DNA of 39,908 bases from Ignavibacteriaceae bacterium (GTDB lineage Bacteria; Bacteroidota; Ignavibacteria; Ignavibacteriales; Ignavibacteriaceae): the NCBI GenBank assembly GCA_014860115.1, contig JACZKK010000155.1, forward strand, positions 1 to 39,908. The letters are read 5' to 3'. The translations under genes were made by a program, and so were the position numbers. Numbering within the stretch: the stretch's first letter is position 1; each line of letters begins with the position of its first letter. The notes beneath the pieces are model-generated. The model was not told the DNA's origin. It was given only the letters and a program-made list of their open reading frames with translations, and did no database searches. Shown here piece by piece: positions 2,823-8,682 of this stretch.

Positions 2823-2871
2823 AAATCCCTCCCTCTCACTTCGTTCGAGGACTCCCTTTACTAAAGGGAGA
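2823..2871 (-). repeat. double-hairpin palindromic repeat, copy 1
   Basis: Read on the - strand it starts with a perfect 8-bp hairpin (CTCCCTTT-AGT-AAAGGGAG, 2852-2870), followed by an imperfect second stem closing on a GAA loop (CTC..AC-GAA-GTGAG) and a G-rich tail. It has the same order of parts as the two copies at 2884-2927 and 3368-3415 but in opposite orientation. Confidence 0.55.
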
Positions 2872-2883
2872 CTTTTAAATAAT

Positions 2884-2927
2884 TCCCCCTTTAATAAAGG
2901 GGGACGCGGCGAAGCCGAGGGGGATTT
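2884..2927 (+). repeat. double-hairpin palindromic repeat, copy 2
   Basis: Perfect hairpin CCCCCTTTAATAAAGGGGG (2885-2903, 8-bp stem, AAT loop), then a second hairpin CGGC-GAA-GCCG (2907-2917), then GGGGGATTT. It lies just beyond the stop codon of the DUF559 gene and is in direct orientation with copy 3 on the other side of that gene. Confidence 0.7.
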
Positions 2928-2939
2928 CCAAAGTTAAAT

Positions 2940-3347
2940 TCATTTCAATTTTAATTCTTGTTCTCGTATATGCAATTGTTCCTTAAAATCCGTCTCAACT
3001 AAATGAAAATTGCTCAGAACTCTAAAATCATTGTAATGCAAAACTTTTAATCCATAAGGTTCCAATATTTTGTCCCTATGTTTATCGTAATCTTGCTTGT
3101 CATCGTGACTTGTTCCATCAATTTCAATTACTAATTTTAACTTCGGACAATAAAAATCAACAATGTAATGATAAAGAATTTTTTGTCTATAGAATTGATA
3201 ACCGCTTTGTCTCTTTCTTAACAACTCACACCAGAATTTTATTTCTCCTTTTGTTGAGTTGTTACGCATTTCATTTGCTCTATCCTTCAACTTCGGATTA
3301 TAAGGCAATTCTCTGAAATTTGTAATCAATCCATTCTTCTTTGGCAT
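2940..3347 (-). CDS. DUF559 endonuclease-domain protein (Vsr/PD-(D/E)xK-like fold)
   Basis: A 135-residue protein filling a typical DUF559 domain. The N-terminal helix region (NPKLKDRANEMRNNSTKGE) precedes the core: Asp64 in YIVDFYCPKL, Glu75 and Asp77 in KLVIEIDG, and His81 in GTSHDD, matching the layout of the very-short-patch-repair nuclease fold. DUF559 proteins are widespread and often multicopy, and their function is not established. The gene is opposite in strand to both neighbours and is framed by related double-hairpin repeats at 2884-2927 and 3368-3415, which is more typical of an inserted unit than of a housekeeping gene. Start is ATG; no signal peptide. Confidence 0.85.
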   Translation of the reverse strand: MPKKNGLITNFRELPYNPKLKDRANEMRNNSTKGEIKFWCELLRKRQSGYQFYRQKILYHYIVDFYCPKLKLVIEIDGTSHDDKQDYDKHRDKILEPYGLKVLHYNDFRVLSNFHLVETDFKEQLHIREQELKLK

Positions 3348-3367
3348 AGTGCAAAATTAAATTAAAG

Positions 3368-3415
3368 TCCCCCTTTAATAAAGGGGGTGTCATTCCGAAG
3401 GAATGACGGGGGATT
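3368..3415 (+). repeat. double-hairpin palindromic repeat, copy 3
   Basis: Starts with the same perfect hairpin as copy 2 (CCCCCTTTAATAAAGGGGG, 3369-3387). The second hairpin is GTCATTCC-GAA-GGAATGAC (3389-3407, perfect 8-bp stem), followed by GGGGGATT. Compared with copy 2 the second stem has a different sequence on both sides but keeps the GAA loop and position. Confidence 0.7.
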
Positions 3416-7225: not shown

Positions 7226-8649
7226 TAAAAAATCTCTTGTATGCAATAATGATATTATTCATCACAGGGACAAGCATAAATGCGCAATTTACACTTCAGA
7301 ATGCGTTTCCAAATTTATCCTTCAACGGCGCGGTATTCTTAACTCACGCCGATGATAGCACAGATAGAATTTTTATAGTTGAGCAGGCAGGAAGAATAAA
7401 AGTATTCCCAAATAGTCAAAATGCTTCTGTTGCAAAAGAATATTTGAATATAACTGACCGTGTTTCATCAGGTGGTGAAAAAGGTTTGCTTGGATTAGCT
7501 TTTCATCCTGACTATGAATCTAACGGATATATCTATGTAAATTATACTAATGCAACCAGTACTGTTATTTCAAGATTCCAGGTGACAAATAATCCAGATT
7601 CTGCAGATAAAAACACCGAGTTTCAGTTACTAACATTCACTCAGCCTTATTCAAATCATAACGGCGGATGGATAGGCTTTGGACCAAATGATGGTTATCT
7701 CTACATCGCAACTGGCGACGGCGGTTCAGGTGGCGATCCACAGAATTATGCACAGCGGATAAACACTTTGCTTGGTAAAATCCTTCGCCTCGATGTTGAT
7801 GGCGGTACACCATATGCAATTCCACCAACAAATCCATTTATTGATAGCACAAATGTTCAAGTTAGAAAAGAAATTTATGCGTGGGGACTACGGAATCCAT
7901 GGCGCTGTAGTTTCGATCTCGTAACAGGCTGGCTTTTTGCCGGTGATGTTGGACAAGGTGACTGGGAAGAAATTGATGTGATTGAAAACGGAAAAAATTA
8001 TGGCTGGAGATGTTACGAAGGCAATCATACTTATAACATGTCTGGCTGCAATTACCCTGAATATATTTTCCCTATTTGGGAATATAGTCACTCTGTTGGT
8101 TACTCTATAACCGGAGGGTATGTATATAGGGGAGTAAATGTCCCTGAACTTCTTGGGAAATATATTTACGCTGACTACGGAACAAGAAGAGTATGGGCCC
8201 TTTCTTACGATGGTATTACTCCGCCTTCAAATGAATTATTGTTAACCGCAGCGAACAATCCTACTTCGTTTGGAGTTGATCAAGCAGATGAACTTTATCT
8301 CGTTGGATTCAGCACAATCTATCGTTTTACACCGACTGTAACTTCCACTGACAATGAATCCAGTCTTAGTGATTACACACTAGAACAGAATTATCCAAAT
8401 CCGTTTAATCCTTCTACTGTCATAAGATATAATCTTCCTGAAGATAGTGATGTAACAATAAAAATTTATGATGCGGTAGGTAGAGAGATTGATTCAATTA
8501 CAACCGGATTCCAACAAAAAGGTTACTATCAGAAAACATGGAATGCCGAAAGATTATCTTCAGGTGTTTATCTTGTTAAGATGAATGCAAAGTCACTTTC
8601 ATCTGATAAAGAATTTTCAAAAGCTATTAAGATGATTTATTTGAAGTAG
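7222..8649 (+). CDS. secreted PQQ-dependent sugar (glucose/sorbosone-type) dehydrogenase with type IX sorting domain
   Basis: 475 residues: signal peptide ending near SINAQ, a six-bladed propeller of the soluble glucose dehydrogenase/GSDH family (about 25-370), and a C-terminal type IX secretion sorting domain (about 388-475, starting YTLEQNYPNPFNPST and ending SGVYLVKM...KMIYLK). Family hallmarks are GLLGLAFHPDY with the conserved His, YLYIATGDGGSGGDP, GKILRLDVDGG and YAWGLRNPWR. Members oxidise aldoses with PQQ, but many homologues have unknown substrates. The ATG overlaps the GH13 stop (ATGA), so the two are translationally coupled even though one product is cytosolic and the other exported. 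Confidence 0.88.
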   Translation: MIKNLLYAIMILFITGTSINAQFTLQNAFPNLSFNGAVFLTHADDSTDRIFIVEQAGRIKVFPNSQNASVAKEYLNITDRVSSGGEKGLLGLAFHPDYESNGYIYVNYTNATSTVISRFQVTNNPDSADKNTEFQLLTFTQPYSNHNGGWIGFGPNDGYLYIATGDGGSGGDPQNYAQRINTLLGKILRLDVDGGTPYAIPPTNPFIDSTNVQVRKEIYAWGLRNPWRCSFDLVTGWLFAGDVGQGDWEEIDVIENGKNYGWRCYEGNHTYNMSGCNYPEYIFPIWEYSHSVGYSITGGYVYRGVNVPELLGKYIYADYGTRRVWALSYDGITPPSNELLLTAANNPTSFGVDQADELYLVGFSTIYRFTPTVTSTDNESSLSDYTLEQNYPNPFNPSTVIRYNLPEDSDVTIKIYDAVGREIDSITTGFQQKGYYQKTWNAERLSSGVYLVKMNAKSLSSDKEFSKAIKMIYLK

Positions 8650-8663
8650 AACCCCATCACTGA

Positions 8664-8682
8664 CCCTTCCCTAAGGGAAGGG
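8664..8682 (+). repeat. palindromic intergenic repeat
   Basis: A perfect 8-bp hairpin CCCTTCCC-TAA-GGGAAGGG directly after the sugar dehydrogenase gene, without a T-tract. It belongs in style to the dispersed palindromes elsewhere in the window. Confidence 0.5.

Follow-up and report, generated by a model that had tools for sequence, protein, structure and literature searches.

A DUF559 nuclease gene between palindromic repeats in an Ignavibacteriaceae genome is probably a copy of a homing-endonuclease-like mobile element

Short, often paired palindromes that flank a nuclease gene, co-vary with it and also occur alone are known from the RAYT system. Rickettsia palindromic elements (RPEs) are palindromic DNA lying in frame within unrelated protein-coding genes, and the cited passages of a review describing them name no nuclease partner (PMC10969869). 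The homing endonuclease I-Bth0305I is reported to have additional regions that bind DNA and to recognise a target almost 60 bp long (PMC3943268). A DUF559 gene has already been put in the EDxHD homing family by a paper whose text does not mention palindromes (PMC9403480), and in the open-access literature we found no earlier description of DUF559 elements with palindromic ends.

The window, that is, the whole stretch of 39,908 nt analysed here, contains a putative mobile unit of repeats and gene at 2824-3415. Within it the lone DUF559 gene (2940-3347, minus strand) lies between two plus-strand repeat copies in direct orientation. Copy 1 (2881-2927) consists of the palindrome CCCCCTTTAATAAAGGGGG (2885-2903), the GAA-loop stem CGGC-GAA-GCCG (2907-2917) and the G5-ATT tail GGGGGATT (2919-2926), and copy 2 (3366-3415) of the identical 19-mer CCCCCTTTAATAAAGGGGG (3369-3387), the stem GTCATTCC-GAA-GGAATGAC (3389-3407) and GGGGGATT again (3408-3415). 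The third copy, inverted on the minus strand (2824-2871), has an AATCCC end, a weak second stem and the palindrome CTCCCTTTACTAAAGGGAG at 2852-2870; a TCTCCCTTTAGTAAAGGGAGA palindrome stands on both flanks of the relative L079. Folding z-scores of the repeat copies were -2.5, -4.5 and -2.3. The preliminary description of this DNA had given the repeat positions, the two direct copies with an inverted third and the single antisense gene, and all of these were confirmed in the sequence. It had also read the difference between the second stems as structure being kept. The second GAA-loop stems of copies 1 and 2 do differ in sequence; those at 3389-3407 and 2829-2845 resemble other dispersed repeats of the type GTCATTCCGAnCGAAGnGAGGAAT, and the difference may thus reflect mosaic repeats rather than a maintained structure.

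The window gene encodes 135 aa, and PF04480/DUF559 was its sole Pfam match (E 9.5e-29). In a structure comparison its AF2 model (pLDDT 84) matched a Neisseria putative endonuclease-like protein (Z 13.6), the homing endonuclease I-Bth0305I (3r3p; Z 11.8, rmsd 2.2 over 94 residues) and Vsr (1cw0; Z 9.5). I-Bth0305I is the closest functionally characterised match of the model and was also matched by sequence profile (E 1.7e-5). Residues E35, D64, E75, D77, H81, D88 and R91 are invariant across 20 DUF559 proteins. The window protein gave no Pfam match to the Y1 HUH transposase family, and its fold is Vsr/PD-(D/E)XK-like. On the model, DUF559 is thus predicted to be a Vsr-type fold nuclease of the EDxHD kind, related to I-Bth0305I; it would probably be active as a nuclease, and it may be the enzyme that recognises or spreads the palindromes.

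Palindromes were counted genome-wide by pattern searches with a centre of 3 nt; a pattern with a 4-nt centre matched almost nothing. We use YR for a perfect palindrome with a pyrimidine-rich left arm and a purine-rich right arm, the opposite order (RY) serving as internal control. The 3.93 Mb genome contains three exact copies of the 19-mer CCCCCTTTAATAAAGGGGG, two of them as the flanks of the window DUF559 gene, which exceeds chance; the same pattern read backwards, as a control, is present nowhere in it. Only four palindromes of this class are present in the whole 39.9 kb, three of them inside the unit. At 8655-8682, directly after the stop of a gene ending at 8649, stands a single YR palindrome CCCTTCCCTAAGGGAAGGG with CCCCATCACTGA in front of it; its stem type is that found at the left end of elements embedded in methionine synthase (MetH).

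All six DUF559 genes of the window genome are adjoined by palindromes that share this plan and differ in their stems. DUF559 is distributed patchily and in multiple copies across 59 related genomes, which have 0-10 genes each. Among loci taken from these relatives without regard to palindromes, 49 of 57 standalone DUF559 genes had a YR palindrome within 300 nt and eight lacked a perfect-arm one. The flanks (34.2 kb) held 100 YR palindromes versus two in the 68.4 kb at 600-1200 nt; only two RY controls lay within 300 nt, and the background at unrelated loci was 0.016 YR per kb. None of 25 PIN-domain control loci in the same genomes had a YR palindrome (Fisher p 1.8e-14). In the window genome (G000) and its relative G002, 23 copies of one palindrome type were counted, of which 7 lay near DUF559 genes, with 0.03 expected. 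Palindrome type A was present in 8/8 genomes with the matching DUF559 subfamily versus 16/51 without it, which suggests that copies can outlive the gene or have another mover. The preliminary description had asked whether DUF559 genes lie beside the repeats more often than chance, which they do, also across phyla, and whether repeats go with DUF559, which is borne out in that repeat presence follows a DUF559 subfamily. Neither of the outcomes that it named as refuting its reading, a missing enrichment or the gene in synteny without repeats, was obtained. In one complete genome, tandem palindrome-bearing units with a period of about 206 nt stand beside a DUF559 gene (L061), and six further tandem copies have a period of about 199 nt (G030:C1:199154-200166).

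A scan of one genome per species gave 80 DUF559 loci from taxa including Bacteroidetes, Cyanobacteria (Microcystis, Scytonema, Okeania), Alphaproteobacteria, Geobacter and other Deltaproteobacteria, Leptospiraceae, Patescibacteria, Acidobacteria, Nitrospirae and Planctomycetota. In 52.7 kb of near flank, 77 YR palindromes were counted versus six in 97.5 kb of far sequence, and the RY control gave four and three, respectively. A perfect-arm palindrome was present at only about half of these loci, so the association there is strong and not universal. Re-examination of 20 of the genomes found YR at 24/28 loci, in a biased sample, as most genomes had been picked for one palindrome-bearing locus that was then counted again.

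The ends of an element usually match each other. Where palindromes stood on both sides, identical 8-nt arms were found in 21 of 28 loci, compared with 9% arm identity between mismatched loci and 10% when the loci compared came from a single genome (permutation p 1e-4). Between different genomes, arms were shared in 62% of gene pairs with more than 60% protein identity versus 5% of pairs below 50%, and palindrome and DUF559 protein relatedness were correlated (Mantel r -0.36, p 2e-4). Inverted outer ends are common among the elements, for example AACTCACCC...GGGTGAGTT, and in some loci (L006, L030, L054) the DUF559 gene sits between the two halves. The window unit has no counterpart at the syntenic site in two species of the same genus (genomes G001, G002), where the bordering genes are adjacent without palindromes or DUF559 between them; orthologous sites lacking the unit, which the preliminary description had proposed to look for, therefore exist. 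Solo palindromes occur without DUF559, also in genomes without any DUF559 match (e.g. G010, G020). Two window-type solo palindromes of the window genome lie in frame, one in a 572-aa ORF with an apparent T9SS sorting-type tail (L001, G000:C200:12504) and one in an 879-aa ORF in an apparent histidine-kinase ATPase region (L004, G000:C195:32323).

DUF559 matches in ORFs longer than 900 aa had been intended as a control of ordinary domain fusions, which they proved not to be: they are palindrome-bearing units in frame, with the order palindrome-DUF559-palindrome, within MetH and HsdR. Hosts confirmed by Pfam are LeuRS, RecG, a UvrD-type helicase, methylmalonyl-CoA mutase, peptidase M23, MetH and HsdR, and the palindromes of the embedded units are translated on both sides of DUF559; the embedded copies belong to a subfamily of DUF559. 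A set of 296 genomes from the phylum gave 21 embedded-type matches, 18 of them in frames of 425-1402 aa. In ten embedded proteins, Pfam at E<=1e-8 matched no splicing (Hint) domain next to DUF559, and the embedded form is presumably not spliced out. LeuRS holds embedded DUF559 at two different sites in different genomes (L320, L328, L330 and L333 versus L324), and within the genus g99 the host differs by species, being RecG, LeuRS or the UvrD-type helicase. In a member of Leptospiraceae (L287, G101:C230) a DUF559 unit is in frame in an apparent adenine-specific DNA methyltransferase of a restriction or BREX-like system, a host domain left unnamed by Pfam at E<=1e-8.

The MetH site allowed occupancy to be followed through the relatives. 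The linker was read in 56 of them: 12 carried the insert, three a remnant without DUF559, and 41 were empty, with no palindrome in any empty linker and the states often mixed within one genus. Well-supported branches of the MetH host tree, built with the insert removed, force at least seven changes of state, and the tree rejected the idea that inserted MetHs are one gene lineage forming a single clade. The MetH inserts form one clade (100/97) and the HsdR inserts another. Insert and host trees are incongruent, each rejecting the topology of the other (AU p 4e-5 and 2e-90), with an insert alignment that is short (about 118 aa). As far as can be read from sequence, an insert clade in conflict with the host tree is the pattern of homing, with same-site invasion of empty alleles, and repeated loss or transfer of whole MetH genes could partly account for the patchy occupancy. 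The motif LE[PT] stands just upstream in 14/15 occupied or remnant sites versus 0/41 empty ones, a skew that could be due to co-conversion.

We consider it likely that the window unit is a copy of a homing-endonuclease-like mobile element made up of a single DUF559 gene and its cognate palindromic ends, accompanied by solo copies without the nuclease. Most likely, DUF559 would cut DNA at or near the insertion site of the element, and repair of the break from an element-bearing copy would install palindrome, gene and palindrome by homing, sometimes at a new site. Neither a duplication of the target site nor a strict consensus of the target emerged. If the gene between the repeats were lost, palindromes would be left behind singly or in pairs. 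Reading through the palindromes gives short peptides (PPTPSLREGE, LPLGEGLGGA), which would allow copies to persist in frame in conserved proteins. A wider reading, to which we give slightly less than even weight, is that units of DUF559 and palindromes are a phylum-spanning mobile class, intein-like without splicing, in which a Vsr-fold nuclease and its palindromic ends make one translatable cassette that inserts by homing, in frame, into essential enzymes, and in which derivatives lacking the nuclease make up many of the short YR palindromes dispersed within and between genes of bacterial genomes.

Solo palindromes in genomes without any DUF559 match would also be expected if DUF559 were cargo, riding between two MITE-like palindromes that an unrelated transposase moves in trans. 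However, stem sequence follows the DUF559 subfamily between genomes, as seen in the shares of identical arms, the association recurs across many phyla, and a plain reading of the short flanks brought no conspicuous transposase to light; we regard the cargo explanation as unlikely. The palindromes might instead be older, independent REP-like target sites into which DUF559 homes, so that the flanks are the pre-existing target. Homing endonucleases do insert at their own targets, and flanking copies in direct orientation look like a target that was split or duplicated, but the empty sites, both the syntenic ones of the same genus and the 41 MetH linkers, carry no palindrome. The target-site explanation is weakened by this, and we set it aside as improbable.

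Many genes have flanking hairpins, and the Vsr-like model together with weak PADLOC matches of DUF559 to restriction-type models would suit an immobile nuclease of repair or defence whose gene is surrounded by host hairpins acting as regulators or terminators. Against this, copies form a translated, in-frame part of MetH, RecG, LeuRS and others, two further genes of the window genome contain solo copies in frame, RY hairpins are not enriched and the presence of DUF559 is patchy. The embedded copies with palindromes on both sides refute host hairpins as the sole explanation, and we find it very improbable overall.

DUF559 is a common family still labelled as unknown, and its cognate palindromes give it a testable role. 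The family may also be what mobilises orphan palindromic repeats, and the element provides a nuclease-bearing parallel to RPEs, for which no enzyme is named in the cited passages of the review (PMC10969869). Putatively selfish nuclease cassettes inside LeuRS, RecG and MetH without a visible splicing domain raise the question of how the hosts tolerate them, and a further question is whether DUF559 nucleases could be useful as sequence-specific cutters.

Compared with known systems, the element shares with EDxHD homing endonucleases such as I-Bth0305I the predicted fold, the sequence-profile match and, at MetH, the pattern of same-site invasion. I-Bth0305I is intron-borne, whereas the DUF559 element is a single small domain between palindromes, intergenic or in frame, and neither intron nor intein was seen at the DUF559 elements. 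As in REP/BIME sequences with RAYT, the palindromes are short and often paired, flank and co-vary with a nuclease gene and occur solo, but RAYT is a Y1 HUH enzyme while DUF559 is Vsr/PD-(D/E)XK-like, and the DUF559 element also stands in frame in conserved enzymes. The nuclease-linked REP-like element suggested by the preliminary description is supported by the enrichment, the empty sites, the subfamily tracking and the co-variation of stems with protein, the in-frame copies in conserved enzymes being an addition to the intergenic element first described; its parallel to RAYT gives way to a homing endonuclease as closest mechanistic relative. Like RPEs as described in the review, the element has palindromic DNA translated in frame inside unrelated genes, and in contrast to them it carries a nuclease gene inside. 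With inteins that contain homing endonuclease domains it has in common the in-frame position in conserved enzymes, patchy occupancy of the same site and discordance between the phylogenies of insert and host, but the DUF559 units lack a splicing-domain match, have palindromic ends and are mostly standalone intergenic copies. The parts are thus known separately, in EDxHD homing enzymes, REP/RAYT, RPEs and inteins. Since REP/RAYT and inteins each fail in a defining feature, and the homing fold leaves the palindromic ends unexplained, the combination fits none of these families, with RPEs judged by description; under a stricter classification it may be regarded as a variant of homing elements.
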